DNA from: an uncultured Alphaproteobacteria bacterium
GTDB lineage: Bacteria; Pseudomonadota; Alphaproteobacteria; HIMB59
Assembly (NCBI GenBank): GCA_902613185.1
Contig: CACMGP010000004.1
Coordinates: forward strand, 1-39,943
Length of the DNA stretch: 39,943 nt
Direction of reading: 5' to 3'
The notes beneath the pieces are model-generated. The model saw nothing but the letters and a program-made list of their open reading frames with translations. It ran no database searches and was not told the origin of the DNA. The translations under genes were made by a program, and so were the position numbers. How positions within the stretch are numbered: the first letter of the stretch is position 1; every line of letters begins with the position of its first letter. Below are positions 8,018 to 24,018 of this stretch, piece by piece.

Positions 8018-9160
8018 TTAAGGATTTAAATTTTCAATATAATTTAAGCGACCCAAGATTTCATCTCTGTCCATATAATAACCTTGAAGGTGCCTTTCTC
8101 CAGAATTGGCATCATATTCTTTTCTGCCATGCAACACTCTTCTATTATTAAAACTAAAAATATCTCCGGCTTGCATACGAAAGTTAATTTCAAACCTCTG
8201 GTCATGAAGTAAGCTTAAAAGCTTTCTGTATGCTGAGTAAAAATGATCCATTTGATCAGGATGGCAGTCCATAACTCCCATGTAAGCAACGCTGAACCTA
8301 ATATCATTATAATCATTATTGTGATCGAGAGTTATTATAGGTTTATGCATTACTCTAATTGTATTAGTTGTGTAGTCTCTATTTACAAATTTTACAGACG
8401 TATTAAGGAGTACGTCATAATCATTTGGGTGATTATTTTTTAAATAATCAATTACCTTAAAACCATCTACAGCAACTGACTCACCCCCAGTAGCATTATT
8501 TATTAAGCAGTGAAGAAACTGATATCCTGGAGCTATCTCATAATATGGTAAATCAATATGATTTCTTAGACCTGCAGCAGTATAAGCTGAATTATTAGGG
8601 TTAGGTATATCAATGACCTCGAATGGTGTTTTAAAAAAAGTTTCTCGAGTGTGACTTATATTTTTCAGGATATCAAAACCAGAATTTAGATCTGTTGGAG
8701 CATTTTTAACAATTGAAATACCAAAAAAATGTAGTTGCTGTAACCACTTTTTTAAACCATCATCACTACTAATTATTTCGCTGTAATCTATTTGAATATC
8801 AGTAAATGTATCTTGCATGGATTTATCCCAAATCCTATATGGTGAAACGTACTCTCGACTGTGTTTTAAAGAATAACAATTATGTCTCAACCAATCTCTC
8901 TCATAAACACTTTTATGTCCTCCCTCACTCCATTCAATCTCAAGATTACCTTCACTATTTAGAGAGTAATTTTTAGGGTGAATATCTTCAGATACATCAA
9001 GCAAATTAAAAGTTCGTTCACGAGCTGTTGGATGCACTTCAGAAGGACAATTATCTCTCAACCATAAGAAATTATATTTACTTTTAAAACCATCACTCCA
9101 ATCGACCAAAATAGACTTGTTATTTTTATCGATTGTTTTAATTGAAAGATTTTCGCTCAT
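8018..9160 (-). CDS. Gamma-butyrobetaine dioxygenase (TauD/GBBH family)
   Basis: Fe(II)/2-oxoglutarate dioxygenase that most likely hydroxylates gamma-butyrobetaine to L-carnitine. Its 380 aa match the family. Residues 10-95 form the GBBH-like N-terminal domain (DGFKSKYNFLWLRDNC), followed by the TauD catalytic fold. The iron facial triad is H201-x-D203 (RNHIDLPYY) and H344 (RRVLHGRKEY), and R356 is placed to bind 2-oxoglutarate. The gene follows the carnitine dehydrogenase gene after one base, which favours a carnitine role over trimethyllysine hydroxylation. Together the two enzymes turn gamma-butyrobetaine into 3-dehydrocarnitine. The later steps (beta-keto acid cleavage enzyme, betainyl-CoA thioesterase) are not in the window. 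Confidence 0.85.
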   Translation of the reverse strand: MSENLSIKTIDKNNKSILVDWSDGFKSKYNFLWLRDNCPSEVHPTARERTFNLLDVSEDIHPKNYSLNSEGNLEIEWSEGGHKSVYERDWLRHNCYSLKHSREYVSPYRIWDKSMQDTFTDIQIDYSEIISSDDGLKKWLQQLHFFGISIVKNAPTDLNSGFDILKNISHTRETFFKTPFEVIDIPNPNNSAYTAAGLRNHIDLPYYEIAPGYQFLHCLINNATGGESVAVDGFKVIDYLKNNHPNDYDVLLNTSVKFVNRDYTTNTIRVMHKPIITLDHNNDYNDIRFSVAYMGVMDCHPDQMDHFYSAYRKLLSLLHDQRFEINFRMQAGDIFSFNNRRVLHGRKEYDANSGERHLQGYYMDRDEILGRLNYIENLNP

Positions 9161-9161
9161 A

Positions 9162-10133
9162 TTAAAATTTATTAAATGTTTTATTCCAATTAGGAAAATT
9201 ATTTCTTTGATATTTATTCAAAGTTTTCATGATTTCAATCAAAAAAATATCTCTTTGCACCTCTAGATCTTTAATAGTGTATTTTCCTGCCTGTTTTTTT
9301 GTGCCTGAAATCATTAATTTTTTTAGTTTTGCATCAAGTTTTGGCGCCTTTAATTTAGTCCAAGGTAATTTAAGAGCAGGTCCAAACTGCTCTAACATGT
9401 GTTTCATACCAGTTTGCCCTCCAGCAAGATGAAAAGTTAGGCAAACACCCATAAAAGACCATCGTAATCCAGGTCCATAAACAATCGCATCGTCAACATC
9501 TTTAGTCGAAGCAATGCCATCTTTAATTATGTGAAGTGCCTCTCTCCAAAGAGCCTCCTGTAAACGATCAGATATATAGCCCTCAATTTCTTTTTCTACA
9601 ATCAAAGGCTTCATTCCTATTTCCTCGTAAAACTTCTTAGCTCTGGTAATTGTGTTTTTCTTTGTTTGCTTTCCTGATACCAACTCGACAAGAGGTAATA
9701 AATATACAGGGTTAAATGGATGTCCTATACAAACTCTTTCTGGATAATTACATAAAGATTGAATTCTTGTGGGCAAAAGTCCTGATGAACTAGACGCAAT
9801 GATTATATTTTTTGGCAATAATTTATCTATATCTTTGAGAAGTTTCTTCTTTAACTTTTCATTCTCTGGAGCATTTTCTTGGACAAAGGTGGTTGAATGA
9901 AGAGACTCTCTGAGATCAGAATAAATTTTCAAATTACTAAGTTTTGCATTTTTATTTAAACCTAATCTTTGAAGGCTCTTAAAAGCTGTTTTGGTATTTA
10001 ATAATAGTTGCTTTCTTGCCTTAACACTTGGGTCATAAGCGTTAACTATTAGACCACATGCTAGCATTCTAGCAGCCCATCCAGCTCCAATGACGCCAGC
10101 ACCGACTATTGTGACAATCTTTTTTTTAATCAA
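9162..10133 (-). CDS. lcdH: L-carnitine dehydrogenase, 3-hydroxyacyl-CoA dehydrogenase superfamily
   Basis: NAD-dependent oxidation of L-carnitine to 3-dehydrocarnitine is the likely reaction. The 323-aa protein has an N-terminal Rossmann fold (VGAGVIGAGWAARM, with GAGVIG at 11-16) and the C-terminal helical domain with the family signatures IGHPFNPVYLLPLVE near 138 and GPGLRWSFMG near 220. The length equals the single-domain carnitine dehydrogenases. Longer relatives carry a fused thioesterase that is absent here. The start is TTG at 10133: an in-frame stop lies two codons upstream and no ATG precedes the Rossmann motif. One base separates it from the dioxygenase gene. Other 3-hydroxy acids remain possible substrates. 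Confidence 0.8.
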   Translation of the reverse strand: MIKKKIVTIVGAGVIGAGWAARMLACGLIVNAYDPSVKARKQLLLNTKTAFKSLQRLGLNKNAKLSNLKIYSDLRESLHSTTFVQENAPENEKLKKKLLKDIDKLLPKNIIIASSSSGLLPTRIQSLCNYPERVCIGHPFNPVYLLPLVELVSGKQTKKNTITRAKKFYEEIGMKPLIVEKEIEGYISDRLQEALWREALHIIKDGIASTKDVDDAIVYGPGLRWSFMGVCLTFHLAGGQTGMKHMLEQFGPALKLPWTKLKAPKLDAKLKKLMISGTKKQAGKYTIKDLEVQRDIFLIEIMKTLNKYQRNNFPNWNKTFNKF

Positions 10134-14556: not shown

Positions 14557-14630
14557 GGCCCGCTGGCAGATTGGTTATGCAGAGGACTGCAAATCCTTGT
14601 AGCTCGGTTCGATTCCGGGGTGGGCCTCCA
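14557..14630 (+). tRNA. tRNA-Cys (GCA)
   Basis: A 74-base cloverleaf with an encoded CCA end. The acceptor is GGCCCGC with GTGGGCC (one G-U pair), the anticodon loop CTGCAAA carries GCA, the T arm is CTCGG/CCGGG around TTCGATT, and the discriminator is T, as expected for tRNA-Cys. It lies 21 bases after the GST stop. Confidence 0.97.
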
Positions 14631-14707: not shown

Positions 14708-15571
14708 TCAAAGCGAACAAATTTCTAAAAGTTTGAAATCATTCCTATTGAAAAAAGAAATATTTGGCAGATTTGGAAAATTATTACCTTCATTGGGAAT
14801 AAAACTATTAAGAGTATTATATGTATTAATAAATTTTGTTGGATACTTGGGTAAATTAGTAGAAACAGATCTAAATATTTCATCGTATAATTTTTTTAGA
14901 ACAGAAAACTCATCTATAATTTTTAAATTAATTTGTGAATAAGGTATTGCATAAGTGAAGCGATCAACTATTGGAAAAGACCATTGGTTTCCTTTCACAT
15001 TGTACTCATGGGGAAGTACAGTTGCTAGCTTTGGAAAATTGCATCTTATAGTTAATTTTTGATTTGTAGGCAAAATGTATTCAATACAAACAAAAGCTAG
15101 ATTGCTATCAAACCCAGGCGTTAAATATTTTAAATAATTAAAATTACCTTTGTTACCTTTTTCATATAATTGATAAAGGGAATTTCTTAGCTGAGAGGCA
15201 GGAGGAATATTAGAATCATTAAAATTAAATAACTCAACTAGATATTTATCTGAAAAAATTTCTTCATGATTAAGCTCATCTAAAAATTCATCATAAATGA
15301 TTTCTCTCTCCCTATTAGATAAATTCTCATTCTTATTATATAATTTTATATTTAAATCTTGATATTCTTTTGACCTTAGTGCTATGTGCTCATCCCAATT
15401 TTCAAGATAATAAAAATAAACATAAGCTTTACAAGTTATTGGAATAAAACGAAAGTTTCTAAAATCAGAATAATTCTTTTCAATATCATTGGAGTAATGT
15501 TCAACTAATAATTCATCAGTATACTTTTCTGGAGTATGCCATCGATAAACTTTATCTTTTTTAGAAAACAT
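14708..15571 (-). CDS. Protein of unknown function, last gene of a four-gene cluster
   Basis: 287 aa, no signal peptide and no membrane helix. I do not recognise it. It is rich in Asn, Tyr and Phe. The N-terminal part has a hydrophobic stretch, FIPITCKAYVYFYYLENW, near residues 42-59, followed by a charged helical region (80-115, RSKEYQDLNIKLYNKN) and a beta-rich second half. It starts five bases after the stop of the preceding gene, so it is probably the fourth cistron of the set read from 17106 down to 14708. Its 3' end faces tRNA-Cys. No catalytic motif stands out. Confidence 0.7.
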   Translation of the reverse strand: MFSKKDKVYRWHTPEKYTDELLVEHYSNDIEKNYSDFRNFRFIPITCKAYVYFYYLENWDEHIALRSKEYQDLNIKLYNKNENLSNREREIIYDEFLDELNHEEIFSDKYLVELFNFNDSNIPPASQLRNSLYQLYEKGNKGNFNYLKYLTPGFDSNLAFVCIEYILPTNQKLTIRCNFPKLATVLPHEYNVKGNQWSFPIVDRFTYAIPYSQINLKIIDEFSVLKKLYDEIFRSVSTNLPKYPTKFINTYNTLNSFIPNEGNNFPNLPNISFFNRNDFKLLEICSL

Positions 15572-15576
15572 CTTAT

Positions 15577-16215
15577 TTAATTAATATTAACATAATTAAA
15601 ATTATAGAATTTTTTGTATTCAGTAACAAAATTACTATCACTATTTACAAAACAAATAAATTGAAGCTTTTTATTAATATGAATTTGTTCGTTTAATAAT
15701 TTACAAGCACTAGTTAGAGTTAAATTATCAAAAATATAAAGAAAGTTTTCAGATATTAATGGAATATATATTTCATTTTTGTCTTTCATAATAGACAAAG
15801 AAAATAGTAGACAAATAAAATTTAAATCTCCGCCAGGGAATAAGTAAAAATTTTTTAAATTAGAACGACCACTATATTTATTATTAAGATACTCTTGGTG
15901 TTTAGGAATAAGTGAGTTAAAAAGCCTTCTAAAAGTAAGATTATTATCTACATCAATTATATTTTTATAATTTGTAATTATATCTTTGAACTTCTCATTA
16001 TATATCAGAGAACTACAATAATTTATTTTATTATTTCTATATTTCTTACTCACTAATTGAATAAGATTATTTTTAACAACATCAGCCTTTGAATAATCTT
16101 TATAGATTATAACATTAACACCTCTTTGAATGTTTTTATCTAAAGTAATATTTTGATTAATTTTTAAGTCAGAATATTCAATATAATTATAATTACCTTC
16201 AACTAAATATTTCAA
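15577..16215 (-). CDS. Protein of unknown function, third gene of a four-gene cluster
   Basis: 212 aa, apparently cytoplasmic, strongly enriched in Asn, Lys and Ile. I do not recognise it. A GNYNYIEYSDLKIN start is followed by alternating helix and strand prediction. FYLFPGGDLNFICLLFSLSIM at about 124-144 (with PGGD) is the most motif-like part, and the C-terminus ends in NFNYVNIN. Its ATG overlaps the stop of the secreted protein gene by four bases (ATGA), which indicates coupled translation. PGGD plus a hydrophobic strand could belong to an alpha/beta fold, but that is only an impression. Confidence 0.68.
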   Translation of the reverse strand: MKYLVEGNYNYIEYSDLKINQNITLDKNIQRGVNVIIYKDYSKADVVKNNLIQLVSKKYRNNKINYCSSLIYNEKFKDIITNYKNIIDVDNNLTFRRLFNSLIPKHQEYLNNKYSGRSNLKNFYLFPGGDLNFICLLFSLSIMKDKNEIYIPLISENFLYIFDNLTLTSACKLLNEQIHINKKLQFICFVNSDSNFVTEYKKFYNFNYVNIN

Positions 16216-16637
16216 AACAACTTATCTTTTTTCTTGGAACATTGGTAAATACCTATGGCTGCTAATCCTTTTTTGGTTTCAGATCCATCAACCCAAGAGA
16301 GATCCTGAGTGGCAAAAATAGACATGTAAGTTTTACCATTAATTCTATTTATTTTTATCAATCTATTGAAATAGCCTAACGATTGATCAAAAGCACTAAT
16401 TACATCATCATTCTTAGAAGTTATCTCATAGTTTAAATCATTTACCTTTATATAATCTTTAAGTAAGAATGTTTGAATATCTAATGGAGGGAATAAAGCA
16501 TTACAAAGAGAGCCTATACCTTTAACTGTAATATATTCACATTCACATGATAACTTCGCAGCAAATGAACTAGATGAGTATAAAATAGGAAATGAAATAA
16601 TTAAAATTATTAAAGATCTATTAAAAAAATTAACCAT
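16212..16637 (-). CDS. Small exported cysteine-containing protein of unknown function
   Basis: 141 aa with a Sec signal peptide (basic NFFNR, then LIILIISFPILY, cleavage likely after SSSSFA near residue 26). The mature domain has Cys31, Cys33 and Cys45 near its N-terminus and a Cys about ten residues from the C-terminus (GIYQC), which could make two disulfides in the periplasm. No lipobox is seen. SWVDGSETKKGLAAIGIYQC near the end suggests a small beta-domain. It overlaps the upstream NTF2-like gene by 8 bases and the downstream gene by 4. The family is not recognised. Confidence 0.7.
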   Translation of the reverse strand: MVNFFNRSLIILIISFPILYSSSSFAAKLSCECEYITVKGIGSLCNALFPPLDIQTFLLKDYIKVNDLNYEITSKNDDVISAFDQSLGYFNRLIKINRINGKTYMSIFATQDLSWVDGSETKKGLAAIGIYQCSKKKDKLF

Positions 16638-17106
16638 ATAAATATGCTTCTCTCAAATCAGCATCTTCATCAGGAATTTCACTATCAAATTTATCTACGA
16701 TTTTAACTTCATCAACTAACGGTTTAATTGTTGTTGTAAAAATTTTTGTAATTTTATGAAGTTCATTGACCTCAATTGCTACGTAACAATCATTTAATCC
16801 ATTTAGATTTATCACTAGGCAGGGTTTATTATGAGGAGCATAACCTTTAAATAGGACTCTAGGTTTGGTTTCTCTATATTGACCAAAAAAATGAAATCTT
16901 TTGACAATGTATCTAGCTACATCTTCCAATCCTTCAATATCAAAAAAAACATCTTGGCTTCCATAGGTTACATCATGTGCCAAATGTTTAATCATGATAG
17001 ATCCATCAAAAGTCTCATTGGCTTCTTTATAAAGTAATAATAATTTCTCCAGAGGTTCTTTTTCTTCTTTTTTATAATATTTAGGCCAAAGACTTAAATA
17101 GGGCAT
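16630..17106 (-). CDS. NTF2-like (SnoaL-type) protein, first gene of a four-gene cluster
   Basis: 158 aa. The pattern of an N-terminal helix with LLLYKEANETFDGSIMIKHLAHDVTYG, then FFDIEGLEDVARYIVKRFHFFG, then alternating strands (KPCLVINLNG, CYVAIEVNE, ITKIFTT), is that of the cone-shaped NTF2-like fold. Such proteins are small enzymes or ligand binders, and the ligand is not readable here. The start ATG at 17106 has no Shine-Dalgarno sequence and lies inside the 3' arm of a potential 9-bp helix with upstream sequence (17100-17177). It opens the four-gene unit with 8-, 4- and 5-base junctions. Confidence 0.72.
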   Translation of the reverse strand: MPYLSLWPKYYKKEEKEPLEKLLLLYKEANETFDGSIMIKHLAHDVTYGSQDVFFDIEGLEDVARYIVKRFHFFGQYRETKPRVLFKGYAPHNKPCLVINLNGLNDCYVAIEVNELHKITKIFTTTIKPLVDEVKIVDKFDSEIPDEDADLREAYLYG

Positions 17107-17263: not shown

Positions 17264-18022
17264 TTACTTCATTTCATCGATTATTTTTTTTATGGTTCTT
17301 GATGTAAGATCTAGAATTCTTTTTCCTTTATCTGCAGAGGATTTTGTAGGATTGCCAATTATACCTGTCTTGGACAAATCTTTTGTATTCCAAGCTCTTT
17401 TAATTGTTCTTTCATAAGAAATTATTTTTTTTGATTTAAAGTCAGATGAGAGTTTGTTTCTTTTAATTTTATTTAATTTTATCAATTCTGGATAAAGGTG
17501 GAGCATTATTGATGTTTCAAATTCACCTCCATGATATCCATAAAGTAATTCCTTTTTTGGAATAATTTTTTCAAAACCTTTAAATAAAAAATAATGTGCC
17601 TTAACAATATCGACAGCTTTATATCTACTTTTAATTTCTTTAGCAGCTATATCTAAGTGACTAATTTGTCCGCCATGACTATTTAAAAAGATAAATTTTT
17701 TATATCTACGAATACATAACTCACCAACTATGCTGATAATATAATCTATATAATTTGTAGAGTTCGAAGATAGAGTGCCCTCAAAGCTATTATGCTCACT
17801 CGCTGAACCTATTGAGATATTTGGTAGAATTAAATATTTATTAAGTTTGGGATATTTCATAATAAAAGTATTTAAAATTCCATCTAATATCAATTTATCA
17901 GTACCTGATGGAAGGTGTTCTCCATGTTGTTCTACAGATGAAAATGGGAGAATAAGTATTTTATTTTTACCTAATTTACTTATCTCTGCTGATGTTAAAT
18001 CGGACCAAAACTTTGATAGCAT
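17264..18022 (-). CDS. Creatininase-family amidohydrolase
   Basis: 252 aa. The family includes creatinine amidohydrolase, the mycofactocin protein MftE and the archaeal ArfB deformylase, which acts on the formylated product of GTP ring opening. Metal ligands are visible: E31 and H33 in SSVEQHGEH, D42 in SGTD, H116 in LNSHGG, and E167 with E169 in HGGEFETS. The gene is divergent from the dehydrogenase at 18052 (29 bases apart) and lies beside GTP cyclohydrolase II and RibD-type genes. This context suggests a pyrimidine or pterin intermediate as substrate, perhaps an N-formyl group. The substrate assignment is inference from neighbours only. Confidence 0.82.
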   Translation of the reverse strand: MLSKFWSDLTSAEISKLGKNKILILPFSSVEQHGEHLPSGTDKLILDGILNTFIMKYPKLNKYLILPNISIGSASEHNSFEGTLSSNSTNYIDYIISIVGELCIRRYKKFIFLNSHGGQISHLDIAAKEIKSRYKAVDIVKAHYFLFKGFEKIIPKKELLYGYHGGEFETSIMLHLYPELIKLNKIKRNKLSSDFKSKKIISYERTIKRAWNTKDLSKTGIIGNPTKSSADKGKRILDLTSRTIKKIIDEMK

Positions 18023-18051
18023 AAGTGATATTTAACATTTATATAATTATT

Positions 18052-19014
18052 ATGGAAACTTATTCTCTATGGCTTAAGAATAAAAATAAACCAATTATTA
18101 AGAAAAAAATACTAAGCTATAAAAAAAATTCTAAAACTGTTCTTGTAAAAACTCTTTATTCAGGAATTAGTAAGGGTACTGAGAGATTAGTAGCCTCTGG
18201 TAATATTAGCAAAGATCAGTTCGATATAATGAAATCTCCTTTTCAAGAGGGATCTTTTTCCTTTCCAATTAAGTACGGCTACATTAATGTTGGTAAAATA
18301 GTTGAAGGCCCAAAAAAATATTTAAATAAAAATACATTCTGCCTTTACCCTCATCAGTCGCTATTTAAGATTGATATAAATAATGTGAATATTTTAAAAG
18401 GTAATGGTGATATTCGAAAATATTTACTAACAGCAAATATGGAAACAGCTATTAATATCTTTTGGGATACTCAAGCAAAATTAAATAACAAAATATTGAT
18501 AACAGGGATGGGCTCTGTTGGTATTTTAACTGCCTACTATTATAAATTATTAAAATTTAAAAATGTCTTTATTACTGACATAAATATTAAAAAGAAGAAA
18601 TTTGCTGATATTTTAGGACTAAAATTTATTAATTTTAAAAAAATTAAAGACTTAGATGTTATAATTAATACAACTTCTAATTACGATGTATTAAACCAAT
18701 CACTAAAAAAATTAAATTTAGAGGGAAAATTTATTGAGGCTAGTTGGTATGGAAATAGAAAAGGTCAAATAAATTTAGGAGGTAATTTTCACTCAAAGAG
18801 ATTAAAAATTATTGGTTCTCAAGTTTCAAATATTCCAAAGTATTTATCAAAAAAATATAACTATAAAAAGAGATTGAATTTAGCAATTAATGCTTTATCT
18901 AATAACCAACTTCTTAAATTAATAAACACTGAAAGTGACTTTAAGGACTTAGAGAAAGATTATATTTCAATATTAAATAATCCAGAAAGCATAATGCATG
19001 CTATAAAGTATTAA
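18052..19014 (+). CDS. Medium-chain dehydrogenase/reductase (zinc alcohol dehydrogenase-like)
   Basis: 320 aa from the ATG at 18052. A GTG at 18025 would add nine unlikely residues (IFNIYIII). The GroES-like N-terminal half has SGISKGTERLVASG at 37-50 and KYGYINVGKIVEG, followed by a Rossmann domain with TGMGSVG at 151-157. The catalytic and structural zinc cysteines of classical alcohol dehydrogenases are not seen, so it may be zinc-free, as in BchC-like and other divergent members. It heads a plus-strand run with a one-base gap to the PTPS-like gene, divergent from the creatininase gene. It probably oxidises or reduces a side chain of the cluster's product. Confidence 0.82.
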   Translation: METYSLWLKNKNKPIIKKKILSYKKNSKTVLVKTLYSGISKGTERLVASGNISKDQFDIMKSPFQEGSFSFPIKYGYINVGKIVEGPKKYLNKNTFCLYPHQSLFKIDINNVNILKGNGDIRKYLLTANMETAINIFWDTQAKLNNKILITGMGSVGILTAYYYKLLKFKNVFITDINIKKKKFADILGLKFINFKKIKDLDVIINTTSNYDVLNQSLKKLNLEGKFIEASWYGNRKGQINLGGNFHSKRLKIIGSQVSNIPKYLSKKYNYKKRLNLAINALSNNQLLKLINTESDFKDLEKDYISILNNPESIMHAIKY

Positions 19015-19015
19015 A

Positions 19016-19423
19016 ATGTATTCAATTACTGTTCGAAATAATATTTTAATTGCACATTCTCTCCCAGGTGAGGTTTTTGGACCAGCACAGAATATGCATG
19101 GAGCGACCTACATAGTTGATGCTGAGTTTTATGCAAAAGAGATTAACAAATATAACATTATTATGGATCTCGGGGTTGTAACAGAAATTCTCTCTGACGT
19201 ATTAAAATTTTATAGTTATAAAAATTTAGACGAAGTTGAAGAATTTAAAAATATAATTACCTCTACGGAATTTCTTGCAAAAGATATTTTTGATAGAATA
19301 TGCGCTAAATTACAAAAAGATTACATAGAAGATTTTAACAAGTTGCATAAAATTAAAATTATTTTAACTGAGTCAAATGTAGCTTGGGCTTCTTATGAAC
19401 AAGAGATCAGTAATACACAATAA
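19016..19423 (+). CDS. 6-pyruvoyltetrahydropterin synthase/QueD-fold protein with altered active site
   Basis: 135 aa, with the T-fold of the PTPS/QueD family. H14 (IAHSLPG), H28 (MHGATY), D51 (IIMDLG), the STEFLA motif with E85, and E119 (LTESNVAWASY) line up with conserved positions. Two key residues differ: the catalytic Cys four residues before the His box is Ala24, and the second His of the HGH zinc motif is Ala30. It therefore probably does not act as standard PTPS or QueD, but the fold would still suit a pterin-like ligand. The stop lies 29 bases inside the glycosyltransferase frame. Placement between dehydrogenase and glycosyltransferase genes suggests one pathway. Confidence 0.82.
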   Translation: MYSITVRNNILIAHSLPGEVFGPAQNMHGATYIVDAEFYAKEINKYNIIMDLGVVTEILSDVLKFYSYKNLDEVEEFKNIITSTEFLAKDIFDRICAKLQKDYIEDFNKLHKIKIILTESNVAWASYEQEISNTQ

Positions 19424-20438
19424 GTCTTATTATTTTATTTATCCGGGTGATATTAATACAAAAACAGGCGGTTACATTTATGAAAAAAATATATTAAGAA
19501 GAGCAAAAAAAATTAAATTTAATTTAAATGCTATCAAACTAGCTAACAGCTTTCCCTTTCCTAAAGAAAATGACTTAAAAAATCTAAAAAAAACTTTAGA
19601 AAAATTACCTGATAATGCAGTACTAATTATTGATGGGTTAGTTTTTGAGTGTATTGATAGTATAATAAACTGTTTAGATAGATTTGTAGTAATAGCTCTT
19701 ATACACCACCCTCTTTATCTAGAATTTAATGGCAATCAAAGTCAATTTTTTCTTAAGAACGCTAAAAAATTATATAAGAAAACGAAAAAAATAATTGTCA
19801 CTTCAAATGATACAAAACAACTAATTTTTAAAAAATTTAAAATTAATAAGCATAAAATTCAAGTTGTAGAGCCTGGAATAGAAAAATTAAAAAAATATAA
19901 ATTAAAAAAAGATAAAAATATAAATTTACTATCTGTAGGAAGTATTATTGAGAGAAAAAATTATCATTATCTGTTAAACGAATTAAGATACATGGATAAG
20001 ATAAAATTAAATATTGTAGGAGATATAACTAGAGAGAGTAAGTACTATAATAGATTACTAAAAATTATAAGTGATTATAAATTAAGTAAAAAAGTTAAGT
20101 TTCATAGTAATGTATCAACTAATTTATTATCAAAACTATATTCTAAGTGTGACTTCTATGTCTCAGTAAGTAAATATGAAGGTTTTGGTATGTCACTTGC
20201 TAATGCCCTTCAACTCAAAAAAATGATTATTACATATAAAACTAAAACAATTATGAGTACTCTAAAAAGGGATGGAATTATCTACTTAAATAATTTCAAA
20301 GAAAAAAGTTTATCAAAATTAATTACTAAAAATGCATTTAATTCAGATTTATCAAAAAAATTATCACAAAATAAGAGAAAATTTTTAACACCAATACAAT
20401 CTGGAGATCTTTTTATCAAGATAATAAAAGATGCATAA
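19395..20438 (+). CDS. GT4-family glycosyltransferase
   Basis: 347 aa, GT-B fold. The N-terminal acceptor domain has the TGGYIYEKNIL loop (residues 24-34), and the C-terminal nucleotide-sugar domain has LLSVGSIIERKNYHYLL near 178-194 and VSVSKYEGFGMSL at 256-268. E262 is the first Glu of the EX7E motif. The second is Asn270, a departure from the family. It starts inside the PTPS-like gene (29-base overlap) and overlaps the methyltransferase gene by 8 bases. In this setting it probably glycosylates a small soluble pterin- or pyrimidine-like acceptor rather than a cell-envelope polymer, but this is inference. Confidence 0.83.
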   Translation: MNKRSVIHNKSYYFIYPGDINTKTGGYIYEKNILRRAKKIKFNLNAIKLANSFPFPKENDLKNLKKTLEKLPDNAVLIIDGLVFECIDSIINCLDRFVVIALIHHPLYLEFNGNQSQFFLKNAKKLYKKTKKIIVTSNDTKQLIFKKFKINKHKIQVVEPGIEKLKKYKLKKDKNINLLSVGSIIERKNYHYLLNELRYMDKIKLNIVGDITRESKYYNRLLKIISDYKLSKKVKFHSNVSTNLLSKLYSKCDFYVSVSKYEGFGMSLANALQLKKMIITYKTKTIMSTLKRDGIIYLNNFKEKSLSKLITKNAFNSDLSKKLSQNKRKFLTPIQSGDLFIKIIKDA

Positions 20439-21219
20439 ATTTAATAATGATTGGCTATTTCTTCGAGAGAAAATTGATAAAGTTTCAAGAAATAAAAAAA
20501 TTATAGAAAAAATTAATAAATATTTTCAAGACTACAAAATATTGTCTATCGCTGATTTAGGTTGTGGAACAGGTTCCAACTATAGATATCTGTACCCTAA
20601 ACTTAAAAAAAGGCAATCATGGGATATGATAGACATATCATTTGAGTCAATTAAAGAATTTAAGAAAAAAACAAATAATAAGAATAAAATTATAAATATA
20701 AATTATAAAAAATTTGATTTAATCAAAAATATAAAAAGTTTTAAATTCGAAAAATACGATATTATTACAGGATCTGCGTATTTAGATATAATGCCAAAAA
20801 ATTGGTATTTAGGATTTAAAAAACAAAATCTAAATACAAAAGTTATTTATTTTTCGATTAATTATGATGGATTTTTTAAATTTCACCCAAAACATAAAGA
20901 TGATCAATACGTTTTAAATCTATTTAATAAAGATCAGGAGTCAGATAAAGGTATTGGGCAAAAAGCAGTTGGTAAAAACTGTAGTCAAATAATTAATAAA
21001 TTATTTTCTAAGTCACACAAAACATTTGTTTTTGACTCGAGTTGGGATGTATCAAATAATAAAAAATTTCAAAATATGTTTATAGATTTTTGTGAAAATG
21101 TACTTGAAAAAAATAAGATATCATTAGATAGATGGTTAGATTTTAGAAGGGAAAATATTAAAAAAAATAAATCAAAATTATTTCTAAGAAATAAAGATTT
21201 TTTAGCTTTAAAACTCTAA
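20431..21219 (+). CDS. Class I SAM-dependent methyltransferase
   Basis: 262 aa. Motif I (IADLGCGTGSNYRYL, residues 40-54) binds S-adenosylmethionine, and WDMIDIS near 64 carries the acidic residue for the ribose. KYDIITGSAYLDIMP near 109 is motif IV. The region after 120 is long and basic, with a KNKISLDRWLDFRRENIKKN tail. The gene overlaps the glycosyltransferase by 8 bases and converges on the RibD-like gene with a 12-base overlap. It presumably methylates the glycosylated product of this cluster. The methylated atom is unknown, and the sequence does not point to a protein or RNA substrate. Confidence 0.82.
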   Translation: MHKFNNDWLFLREKIDKVSRNKKIIEKINKYFQDYKILSIADLGCGTGSNYRYLYPKLKKRQSWDMIDISFESIKEFKKKTNNKNKIININYKKFDLIKNIKSFKFEKYDIITGSAYLDIMPKNWYLGFKKQNLNTKVIYFSINYDGFFKFHPKHKDDQYVLNLFNKDQESDKGIGQKAVGKNCSQIINKLFSKSHKTFVFDSSWDVSNNKKFQNMFIDFCENVLEKNKISLDRWLDFRRENIKKNKSKLFLRNKDFLALKL

Positions 21220-22038
21220 ACTTACTATCATTTCTTCACCAAATTTATAAATTTTATTTTTTGTTCTAATAACTTTTTTTAAATTTGTTATAGGTTTTAT
21301 ATTTATAGAATTTATACCAGAACCAATAATTGTAGGTGCTATTATAAATTGCATAATATCTAATAATTTATTCTCAAGAAATTTAGATATAGTTTTAGAA
21401 CCACCCTCTACTAACACGAACTTAAAACCTAATTTATTTATATGTTTGTATATAAGATTTGTGAAATTTCTTTCAGGTAATTTATAAATTTGTGTATTAT
21501 TTAAATTCTTTTTAATATTAGAGTGTGTAAATATGATATTTGAAAAACCATCTTTAAATATTTGATAGTTATTTGTTAATTTTAGAGACGGATCTATAAT
21601 TATCCTCTGAGGATTTGAGCCCTTAATTGCTCTTGTAGTGAGTAAGGGATTATCTTTTTTTATTGTATTTACACCAACTATAACTGCATCACACACTGAA
21701 CGTAGACTATGAAGGTATGAAATACTATTTTTATCATTAATGTAATGAGAATTGCCGTTTAAAAGTGCAATTTTACCGTCTAAGCTTTGCCCAATTTGAC
21801 CGATATAAAATTTTTTTTTTATCATCAATATTGGTAATAAAATTTGTGATATTTCATTTATTTTTTTTTCAATCTTACAATTAAAATTAACGCCATTTTT
21901 ATCAATTAAAATATGATTAGTTTTAGAATGTTGACTAAGTACAAACGATTTGTTAATTAAATCAATTCTTAAGATATTTGATTTTTTTTGTTTTTTTACA
22001 AATTCAAATAGTGAAGAAATATTATGCTTTGTTATCAT
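21208..22038 (-). CDS. RibD C-terminal (dihydrofolate reductase-like) reductase, no deaminase domain
   Basis: 276 aa. Residues 76-245 form a RibD-type reductase domain with QSLDGKIAL at 84-92, VGVNTIKKDNPLLTTR at 121-136, and LVEGGSKT at 209-216 as the NADPH-binding turn. In riboflavin synthesis this domain reduces the ribosyl chain of the pyrimidine to ribityl. The N-terminal deaminase domain of bifunctional RibD, with its zinc HxE/PCxxC motifs, is absent. Instead there is a 70-residue basic N-terminal segment I cannot assign. It lies between the methyltransferase gene (12-base convergent overlap) and divergent ribA (41 bases). It probably serves the cluster rather than primary riboflavin synthesis. 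Confidence 0.85.
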   Translation of the reverse strand: MITKHNISSLFEFVKKQKKSNILRIDLINKSFVLSQHSKTNHILIDKNGVNFNCKIEKKINEISQILLPILMIKKKFYIGQIGQSLDGKIALLNGNSHYINDKNSISYLHSLRSVCDAVIVGVNTIKKDNPLLTTRAIKGSNPQRIIIDPSLKLTNNYQIFKDGFSNIIFTHSNIKKNLNNTQIYKLPERNFTNLIYKHINKLGFKFVLVEGGSKTISKFLENKLLDIMQFIIAPTIIGSGINSINIKPITNLKKVIRTKNKIYKFGEEMIVSLEF

Positions 22039-22079
22039 TTTTCATCTGTATCAAGTACTATTGAGTATATATATAGTCT

Positions 22080-23198
22080 ATGAGTTTAAAATCAAATTTT
22101 GGCACATTTATTGATAGAGCTATCAATGAGCTTAGAACCGGAAGACCAATAGTTATCAAAGAAAATAAAAATTATTGGATGTTCTTTAATATTGAACATT
22201 CGGACAATAAAATTCTAAATCAATTCAATCAATACCTACAAAAAGACAAATATCTTTTAATCACAAAACAAAAAGCAAAATCAATATTTGAAGATAAAAT
22301 ATCAACAAATATTTATTTAAAAATAAATGAAAAAATATCAAACAAATCTTTATTAAGTTTATTCATTAACCCTTTATCTGATCAAAATAAAATATTATTT
22401 AAAGATGAGCCTTATATCAAAAGTAAAGACTTCCATAATGTCTGTTTAGATATTGCCAAAAATGCGAAGGTAATACCGTCACTTATATTTAAAAAAATTA
22501 ATTCAAAATATTATAAAAATATTGATAATCTAATATTACAACTTGGTCTATTAAGATTTAACCATAAAGAGTTAAAAAATCAGAATAAATTTATAACTAA
22601 TAGTATCAGATTAGTTTCAAGTGCAAATGTGCCCTTACCAAATGTTGCATCTACTACTTTTAATATTTTTAAGTCATATATTGGTGCTAGAAGACATATC
22701 GCGATCATAATTAAACCAAAAAATTTAAAACAACCAACAAACCTTAGAATTCACTCAGCTTGTTTTACTGGGGATATATTTCACTCTAGAAAATGCGATT
22801 GCGGAGAACAATTAAATAACTCTTTAAACTATATGGTTAAAAATAAAGGAGGTATTATCCTTTATTTAGATCAAGAAGGGAGAGGTATAGGACTAGCCAA
22901 TAAAATGAGGGCATATTCTCTTCAGTCAAAAGGCTTGGATACTATTGATGCTGATCACAACATAGGTTTTTTAGATGATGAAAGAGATTTTAATATTGCC
23001 GCTAAGATACTTAAGTTATTAAAAGTAAATAAAGTCAATATTATCACAAATAATTTTACAAAAGTTTCTTCTCTTAAAAAAGCTGGTATTAAAATTGCCA
23101 AGCAAATAAATACAAAACCTACAATTAACAAATTTAATAAGAATTATTTTAAAACAAGAGTAAAAAAAACAGGTTACGGTTTTAAAAATTTAGACTAA
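22080..23198 (+). CDS. ribA: GTP cyclohydrolase II with degenerate N-terminal domain
   Basis: 372 aa. Residues 178-355 are GTP cyclohydrolase II, which opens GTP to a 2,5-diamino-6-ribosylaminopyrimidinone phosphate, formate and pyrophosphate. Zinc ligands C228, C239 and C241 have the E. coli spacing (54, 65, 67). Y279 and D300/R302 (LDDERDF) match catalytic residues, while the Glu of the E. coli HSEC box is Ala227. Residues 1-175 resemble a decayed DHBP synthase-like region (AINELRTGRPIVI) without its acidic metal motif. The start is ATG at 22080. It supplies the likely first step of the neighbouring pathway and may be a second copy beside a housekeeping enzyme elsewhere. Confidence 0.88.
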   Translation: MSLKSNFGTFIDRAINELRTGRPIVIKENKNYWMFFNIEHSDNKILNQFNQYLQKDKYLLITKQKAKSIFEDKISTNIYLKINEKISNKSLLSLFINPLSDQNKILFKDEPYIKSKDFHNVCLDIAKNAKVIPSLIFKKINSKYYKNIDNLILQLGLLRFNHKELKNQNKFITNSIRLVSSANVPLPNVASTTFNIFKSYIGARRHIAIIIKPKNLKQPTNLRIHSACFTGDIFHSRKCDCGEQLNNSLNYMVKNKGGIILYLDQEGRGIGLANKMRAYSLQSKGLDTIDADHNIGFLDDERDFNIAAKILKLLKVNKVNIITNNFTKVSSLKKAGIKIAKQINTKPTINKFNKNYFKTRVKKTGYGFKNLD

Positions 23199-23610: not shown

Positions 23611-24018
23611 TTATTTTTCTATATCTTCATCAAATATTTCATCTACTGGCACTTGTATACTATTGACCAGTTGATTTGTTTTTGCTGCAAGAGCTACAAT
23701 ATTTAAAAATTCTGAATGTTCGTCTTTAGTCATCCCAAGTTTTTTTGCTGCAGCTGTGTGTGAGTGTGTGCAATACGAGCAATTATTTGTTATTGAGACT
23801 GCCATATAAATCATTTCTTTAGTTTTATTTGGAATTATGGTTTGTTTAACCATTAAATCTTTAACATCACTCCAAACATTTTTTAGTAATTGAGGGTCGA
23901 ATGCTAAATATTTCCAAAAATTACCTATATAAGTTGTGTTTCTTGATTGTTTAATATCTTCATAGACTTCCTTTATAATTGGATGATTATCATCATCAGT
24001 TCTTTTAATTGTGCTCAC
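23611..24018 (-). CDS. AhpD-like / carboxymuconolactone decarboxylase-family protein
   Basis: 135 aa all-helical protein with the AhpD-like redox motif NNCSYCTHSHTAAAKK near residues 78-93, containing CxxC and the following His. Such proteins use the Cys pair to reduce peroxides or peroxiredoxins, and many are uncharacterised. The start is GTG at 24018 (no upstream ATG), giving STIKRTDDDNHPIIKEVYEDI. It is adjacent to and divergent from the MFS transporter, and upstream of the 33-residue membrane peptide. Confidence in the family is high, but the physiological partner is unknown. Confidence 0.85.
   Translation of the reverse strand: MSTIKRTDDDNHPIIKEVYEDIKQSRNTTYIGNFWKYLAFDPQLLKNVWSDVKDLMVKQTIIPNKTKEMIYMAVSITNNCSYCTHSHTAAAKKLGMTKDEHSEFLNIVALAAKTNQLVNSIQVPVDEIFDEDIEK

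Follow-up and report, generated by a model that had tools for sequence, protein, structure and literature searches.

Seven adjoining genes at positions 17264–23198 of the window, by which we mean the whole 39,943-nucleotide stretch of alphaproteobacterial DNA that was analysed, encode homologs of RibA and RibD together with proteins of five other families. The question raised by this locus is whether these genes serve riboflavin synthesis or a separate pathway. The evidence presented below indicates that they are probably a biosynthetic cassette branching off the riboflavin pathway, the predicted ring-opening of GTP being its best-supported start.

Results

The initial annotation had placed seven families in this interval, and open reading frame coordinates and Pfam matches agreed with that assignment as well as with the spacing (gaps of 2, 1 and 41 bases and overlaps of 29, 8 and 12 bases), the Pfam cut-off being exceeded by all proteins except the MDR dehydrogenase. 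Located on the minus strand were genes for a creatininase-family amidohydrolase that is a candidate formamidase (17264–18022; PF02633, 7.9e-53) and for a RibD C-terminal reductase (RibD_C, 21208–22038; alignment and PF01872, 8.3e-29, 101.3 bits versus a cut-off of 24.1), in which a Pfam scan found no deaminase family. Located on the plus strand were genes for an MDR dehydrogenase of the SGISxGTE type (18025–19014; profile match, fold model and Foldseek), a PTPS-IV T-fold protein with the motif FGPAQ...HGA (19016–19423; PF01242, 8.9e-21, and profile match to SCO6650), a GT4 glycosyltransferase (19395–20438; PF00534, 1.1e-22), a class I SAM methyltransferase (MT, 20431–21219; PF13649, 1.5e-7; model pLDDT 93.5) and the GTP cyclohydrolase II RibA, with zinc cysteines and switch Tyr present (22080–23198; PF00925, 9e-48). 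By inspection, ATG 18052 is a likelier start for the MDR gene than GTG 18025. Since the creatininase and RibD_C genes are on the minus strand, the cassette is not one operon. As noted previously, genes for riboflavin synthase, lumazine synthase or folate were not seen among the window open reading frames scanned or read, which were part of the total. An Rfam scan of the window revealed two tRNAs and no other match.

Within the window's genus, the cassette was placed in a variable slot between a tRNA-Cys (14557–14630, plus strand) on the side of the glutamine synthetase gene and a conserved flanking gene of the carboxymuconolactone decarboxylase family on the opposite side (23611–24018, minus strand; PF02627), both of which are outside the pathway. 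The same slot without the cassette was present in three relatives. Duplication of tRNA-Cys as a mark of the far end of an island was rejected, the best match being 10 bases. In a sister-genus genome (G037), the same seven genes were present in identical order and on identical strands, with protein identities of 50–69%.

By comparison with E. coli RibA, window RibA keeps the three zinc Cys, the switch Tyr and the catalytic Arg (residues RCCCYDR). Apart from this RibA, no intact GTP cyclohydrolase II was found in the genome (G000), which is 92% complete. A riboflavin operon elsewhere in that genome comprises ribD, whose product has a deaminase domain, ribE, ribB and ribH; ribB is fused to a decayed RibA domain (RQNK-DK) that lacks all three zinc cysteines. 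Thus, the search for a second, housekeeping ribA and ribD proposed in the initial annotation yielded the operon ribD and no intact second ribA, and the concern that the cassette copies might be the only ones held for RibA and failed for RibD. In three genomes (G029, G013 and G023), ribA adjoins dmdA-like and rmuC-like genes, and it is absent from this site in G000 and G028, both of which carry the cassette. Because the sole intact RibA found resides in the cassette and the gene is gone from the ancestral ribA site, riboflavin synthesis must also draw on the cassette. Cassette ribA thus appears to have replaced housekeeping ribA, a natural gene swap in a small genome, and its product is predicted to have a dual use in riboflavin synthesis and the side pathway. 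An additional short RibA was present beside the cluster RibA in the four sister-genus cluster genomes examined.

Occurrence of these families together was more than a chance grouping and was not confined to a single genome. When 387 alphaproteobacterial genomes were drawn evenly, PTPS and MDR were found in the identical 51 genomes, with MDR directly upstream of PTPS in 48. Around 47 of these clusters (i.e., the 51 minus G000, G004, G028 and G037), MDR was noted in 46, GT4 in 46, MT in 41 and RibD in 37, RibA was near 15 or 16, one of the 16 being a cysteine-less RibBX-like copy, and creatininase was near 6. The cluster core is MDR-PTPS-GT4-MT, usually with RibD_C; RibA and creatininase are optional. 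For many Streptomyces clusters, a search of the surrounding 10 kb revealed no RibD_C. The four-gene core occurs in many bacteria and in some haloarchaea. Of nine haloarchaeal loci opened, four (L245, L246, L247 and L252) had MDR immediately preceded by a gene annotated as GTP cyclohydrolase IIa, and the two scanned, L245 and L246, matched PF05165, GTP cyclohydrolase III (2.2e-82 and 2.5e-87); no GTP cyclohydrolase gene was found in the stretch at the other five. The first step thus appears to have undergone non-homologous replacement, GTP cyclohydrolase III being unrelated to RibA.

Distance correlations among the five core genes were 0.82–0.96 over 33 loci drawn from those with all five genes (no more than four from each similarity group, species kinship uncorrected), and 200 shuffles of each pair gave values no higher than 0.28. 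The corresponding correlation between creatininase and CDP-alcohol phosphotransferase at 5 loci (0.88) was not above that of shuffles (0.89).

A profile from seven cluster PTPS matched PDB 3d7j, the structure of SCO6650 from Streptomyces coelicolor (E 1.3e-63), and the cassette protein is assigned by this match to the known PTPS-IV subfamily. The sequence FGPAQxxHGA was present in 86/86 loci, FGPAQ itself being part of one search pattern. Enzymes of the 6-pyruvoyl-tetrahydropterin synthase/QueD type have a catalytic Cys and three zinc His. In comparison with QueD, cluster PTPS retains the positions of H16 and H31, but has Ala at the positions of C27 and H33 in 86/86 loci and Tyr, Phe or Met at that of H71, and so lacks the QueD-type set of catalytic Cys and three zinc His in all 86 loci. 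The residue aligned with QueD Glu110, which anchors the pterin, was kept in 85 of them. The MDR protein was below the Pfam cut-off (ADH_zinc_N, 4.5e-4), and its fold model matched polyol, secondary-alcohol and other MDR dehydrogenases (TM by query length 0.65–0.78), which indicates the broad family only. In zinc-dependent MDR alcohol dehydrogenases, residues of the GxC and GHE motifs bind the catalytic zinc; in alignments read by eye, SGISxGTE and KYGY were noted in their place. Similarly, the methyltransferase model matched small-molecule methyltransferases with TM by query length of 0.41–0.64 among the 50 matches listed, again indicating the broad family only.

The set is not entirely unassigned, as had been supposed. 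The PTPS-IV family, the SCO6650 structure and the PF00925/PF01872 neighbourhood were already known, and the FGPAQ signature and both neighbouring domains are described in PMC5445326 (section 19), a section in which MDR, GT4, MT, creatininase and the archaeal and Pelagibacterales forms are unmentioned. Neither a description of the whole cluster nor a product of the gene set was found in open-licence PMC papers.

Association of creatininase with the RibA switch residue was drawn from Actinobacteria alone. Thus, creatininase was present in 26/26 loci with Met, His or Gln at the E. coli Tyr105 position of RibA, all actinobacterial and 23 of them with Met, and in 22/33 loci with Tyr-type RibA, 20 of those 22 being Pelagibacterales-type. 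GTP cyclohydrolase II SCO6655 of S. coelicolor, which forms a formylated product, has Met at the switch, as in those 23 loci and unlike window RibA. Since the latter keeps Tyr, the window creatininase, the one match to this family in G000, is unexplained by the switch residue, and its identity to five actinobacterial creatininases was 25–28%, no nearer than to others. PMC9478397 reports that riboflavin synthesis in Sinorhizobium meliloti requires a creatininase-family formamidase, BrbF, which is likened to the window creatininase by superfamily annotation only and, unlike the cassette gene, has MarR- and CobW-type neighbours.

Discussion

The cluster, its joint inheritance, the predicted GTP-opening start and the probable double duty of RibA in this genus are supported by the above results, whereas we infer the creatininase role, the RibD_C substrate, every tail step and the product. 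The earlier proposal of a multi-gene pathway starting at GTP gains from the co-occurrence outside this genome and from the rib operon elsewhere in it, and the start itself is indicated by RibA, by the 26/26 pairing of non-Tyr RibA with creatininase and by haloarchaeal GTP cyclohydrolase III. RibA would open GTP to give 2,5-diamino-6-ribosylamino-4(3H)-pyrimidinone 5'-phosphate (DARPP), and the creatininase would strip the formyl group where a formylated intermediate is released. RibD_C would convert ribosyl to ribityl without deamination, so that the 2-amino-4-oxo ring would be kept and the intermediate committed away from flavin. The MDR enzyme may then oxidise a side-chain hydroxyl, the PTPS-IV T-fold may bind the pterin-like ring and promote the next step, perhaps ring closure, and GT4 and the methyltransferase would attach a sugar and a methyl group, respectively. 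A glycosylated and methylated product is thus plausible. The archaeal enzymes ArfA-ArfB-ArfC, the front end of riboflavin/F420 synthesis, resemble the cassette front in GTP opening, a formamidase-type hydrolase and a non-deaminating reductase; however, ArfA-type GTP cyclohydrolase III is unrelated to cassette RibA, and the order and function of the three cassette enzymes are those we infer.

Among alternatives, remodelling of a pterin, with dihydroneopterin triphosphate from GTP cyclohydrolase I as substrate, RibD_C reducing pterins in the manner of dihydrofolate reductase and RibA as a mere riboflavin gene, is unlikely. The residue aligned with Glu110 and the lack of RibA near about two thirds of the 47 alphaproteobacterial clusters are in its favour, but the haloarchaeal GTP cyclohydrolase III genes, which precede MDR at four loci, and the constant company of creatininase with non-Tyr RibA are not. 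More doubtful still is the suggestion that RibA, RibD_C and creatininase serve riboflavin only and that the remaining genes are chance neighbours. Although the single intact RibA of G000 and the S. meliloti requirement reported in PMC9478397 fit this suggestion, the ribD-ribE-ribB-ribH operon elsewhere, the separate short RibA of four sister-genus cluster genomes, the 51/51 agreement between PTPS and MDR genome sets and the missing deaminase of RibD_C argue against it. F420 synthesis and the proposed cassette pathway would have ribityl-pyrimidine chemistry in common. Despite this and an unpublished remark, in a section of PMC5041015 (section 7), tying PTPS-IV to an F420/deazaflavin-related cofactor, such a product is highly improbable given that CofH (TIGR03551) was found in 0/8 Pelagibacterales-type genomes and in only 1/19 of all genomes searched, none of them haloarchaeal (18 cluster-bearing and G029, which is not).

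The preferred branch from riboflavin synthesis can be extended, tentatively and with a low probability, to a route that would bypass GTP cyclohydrolase I and yield a pterin-like (2-amino-4-oxo) ribityl cofactor common to Bacteria and Archaea. Its first enzyme, RibA or GTP cyclohydrolase III, would be followed by the non-deaminating reductase, MDR oxidation at ribityl C2', ring closure on the PTPS-IV T-fold, and glycosylation and methylation. A membrane module (CDP-alcohol phosphotransferase, LPG_TM and cytochrome b561) would have been added in many lineages, which might make a lipid-anchored redox cofactor, and the marine cassette a soluble form.

The interest of the cluster lies in its well-supported start, recurring four-gene core and spread over Bacteria and haloarchaea. 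The marine seven-gene version, with no membrane module alongside, is small enough for transfer to a laboratory host and readout by mass spectrometry. The idea that genomes of the genus with the cluster have one more CDP-alcohol phosphotransferase elsewhere was rejected by per-genome counts: G000, G004, G017, G019, G023 and G028 had three each, as did G029, which lacks the cluster, and G013 had five, a number in which fragments may have been counted twice.

Gene content and location of the cassette

Open reading frame calling and a family scan bore out both the coordinates (17264-23198) and the family assignments given to the seven genes in the initial annotation. A minus-strand creatininase gene is divergent from plus-strand genes for an MDR dehydrogenase, a PTPS-IV protein, a GT4 glycosyltransferase and a methyltransferase (MT), the last convergent with a minus-strand gene for a RibD C-terminal domain (RibD_C), from which plus-strand ribA is in turn divergent. 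The PTPS-like protein belongs to the same family as SCO6650 (PDB 3d7j) and shares 79% identity with a Pelagibacterales record; close relatives named among the matches listed were uncultured alphaproteobacterial isolates, and the source is thus probably a Pelagibacterales-type organism.

The cassette is flanked by tRNA-Cys and a carboxymuconolactone-decarboxylase-family (CMD) gene (23611..24018, minus strand), with four short reading frames (14708-17106, minus strand) that lack a Pfam match between tRNA-Cys and the cassette. In genomes G029, G009 and G025, a glutamine-synthetase-family gene and the CMD gene are 0.9-2.1 kb apart with tRNA-Cys in between, and no cassette genes were found between these flanks; at the tRNA-Cys/CMD site, G028 and G030 do carry the cassette. 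In G037, of a sister genus, it lies at a different location, and the 7 of 34 window genes matching that 19.9 kb stretch were those of the cassette only. Elsewhere in the window (8018-10133), a gamma-butyrobetaine hydroxylase-like gene adjoins a 3-hydroxyacyl-CoA dehydrogenase-family gene, resembling carnitine-type metabolism.

Conservation of the core genes

Co-occurrence outside the window's genome, a point raised in the initial annotation, was evident from profile matching of 387 evenly drawn alphaproteobacterial genomes. PTPS and MDR were each matched in 51, the two sets were identical, and these genomes, whose shared descent makes any chance estimate for the overlap too favourable, represent 36 of 263 genera. 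In 48 of the 51, MDR lay immediately upstream of PTPS in the same orientation; in the exceptions it was fragmented and about 6 kb away (G407), on a different contig (G086) or about 1.6 kb off on the opposite strand (G253). Neighbourhood counts for 47 genomes (leaving out G000, the window's own, G004, G028 and G037), which are lower bounds because some contigs end early, were MDR 46, GT4 46, MT 41, RibD 37, RibA 16 (one, at L214, without the cysteines) and creatininase 6, together with CDP-alcohol phosphotransferase 20, cytochrome b561 11, FkbM 10, a sulfatase-annotated membrane protein 9 and LPG_TM 1. Among 86 loci (the best 80 of at least 575 PTPS relatives from a contig scan plus six plasmid loci), a set biased toward the window's kin and Streptomyces, corresponding counts were MDR 83, MT 79, GT4 78, RibD 60, RibA 59, creatininase 54, CDP-alcohol phosphotransferase 47 and LPG_TM 41. 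These comparisons support the view that the cluster is inherited jointly.

An FGPAQ-type PTPS-IV adjoined by PF00925 and PF01872 genes is described in a passage of PMC5445326, and a role of PTPS-IV in F420 metabolism is mentioned as unpublished in a passage of PMC5041015; CofH, an F420-pathway marker, was matched in 1 of 19 genomes searched. On a Streptomyces anthocyanicus plasmid (L174:12001-12426), a PTPS-IV gene lies beside MEKHLA-domain and cupin genes, with no other core gene annotated in the surrounding 24 kb. A Rhodobacteraceae plasmid (L172:10984-15132) carries ribokinase, MDR, PTPS, MT and RibD genes, then one annotated S-methyl-5-thioribose-1-phosphate isomerase.

RibA in housekeeping and in the first step

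In 7 of 8 cluster-bearing genomes of the window's genus (those searched being 86-94% complete), RibA was matched only twice, by the cassette copy and, weakly, by a protein of about 361 residues; G023 had a third match. The second housekeeping ribA considered in the initial annotation was not found in the window's genome (11 contigs, 1.35 Mb, 92% complete), where the only other match (L005:9741-10814) was the decayed GTP cyclohydrolase II domain of the rib-operon RibB, without zinc cysteines, Tyr and Arg. In G023 and in cluster-lacking G029 and G013, ribA sits between dmdA-like and rmuC-like genes, neighbours that are kept in G000 and G028 with ribA lost between them. This loss and the weakness of the second RibA support a takeover of the housekeeping role by cassette ribA, which may act alone or with creatininase. 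Neither cluster-type RibD_C nor creatininase of any kind was found in G029 and G013, and sister-genus cluster genomes (G037, G040, G042 and G043) retain a separate 198-residue RibA.

At the position of the switch residue Tyr105 (E. coli numbering), 26 of the 59 RibA loci in the 86-locus set had another residue (Met 23, His 2, Gln 1), all from Actinobacteria according to record titles. Creatininase accompanied all 26 of these as opposed to 22 of 33 Tyr-type RibA, the 11 loci without it including both of the actinobacterial Tyr-type loci (L077 and L086). SCO6655, with Met at this position, reportedly yields a formylated intermediate. A creatininase-family formamidase acts on this intermediate, according to PMC9478397.

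Proposed pathway

Comparison of the clusters supports GTP opening as the likely start of the pathway, and comparison of genomes a dual role of cassette RibA. Reduction without deamination, oxidation by MDR, ring chemistry at PTPS-IV, glycosylation and methylation would follow, and creatininase may have a role beside Tyr-type RibA as well. Structure models of MT and MDR, searched against the PDB, gave answers at family level only. In other lineages, the presence of membrane genes in the clusters points to a lipid-linked product. No extra CDP-alcohol phosphotransferase was found in cluster-bearing genomes of the window's genus, and the membrane module thus seems optional.

Haloarchaeal clusters

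A search of plasmid records for MDR gave 34, of which 12 were haloarchaeal; in the nine of these opened, MDR is present by construction and PTPS was annotated in seven. Directly upstream of MDR in four (L245, L246, L247 and L252) was a gene annotated GTP cyclohydrolase IIa, and the two of these scanned were PF05165, GTP cyclohydrolase III. Locus L244 contains creatininase and an apparently damaged PTPS-like reading frame. Six aligned haloarchaeal PTPS had HSH and Glu whereas bacterial ones had HGA and Ala, so the two branches differ in their T-fold site. In L245, L247 and L252, a Gfo/Idh/MocA oxidoreductase gene adjoins that for CDP-alcohol phosphotransferase, and a cytochrome P450 gene lies about 4-5 kb past the methyltransferase.
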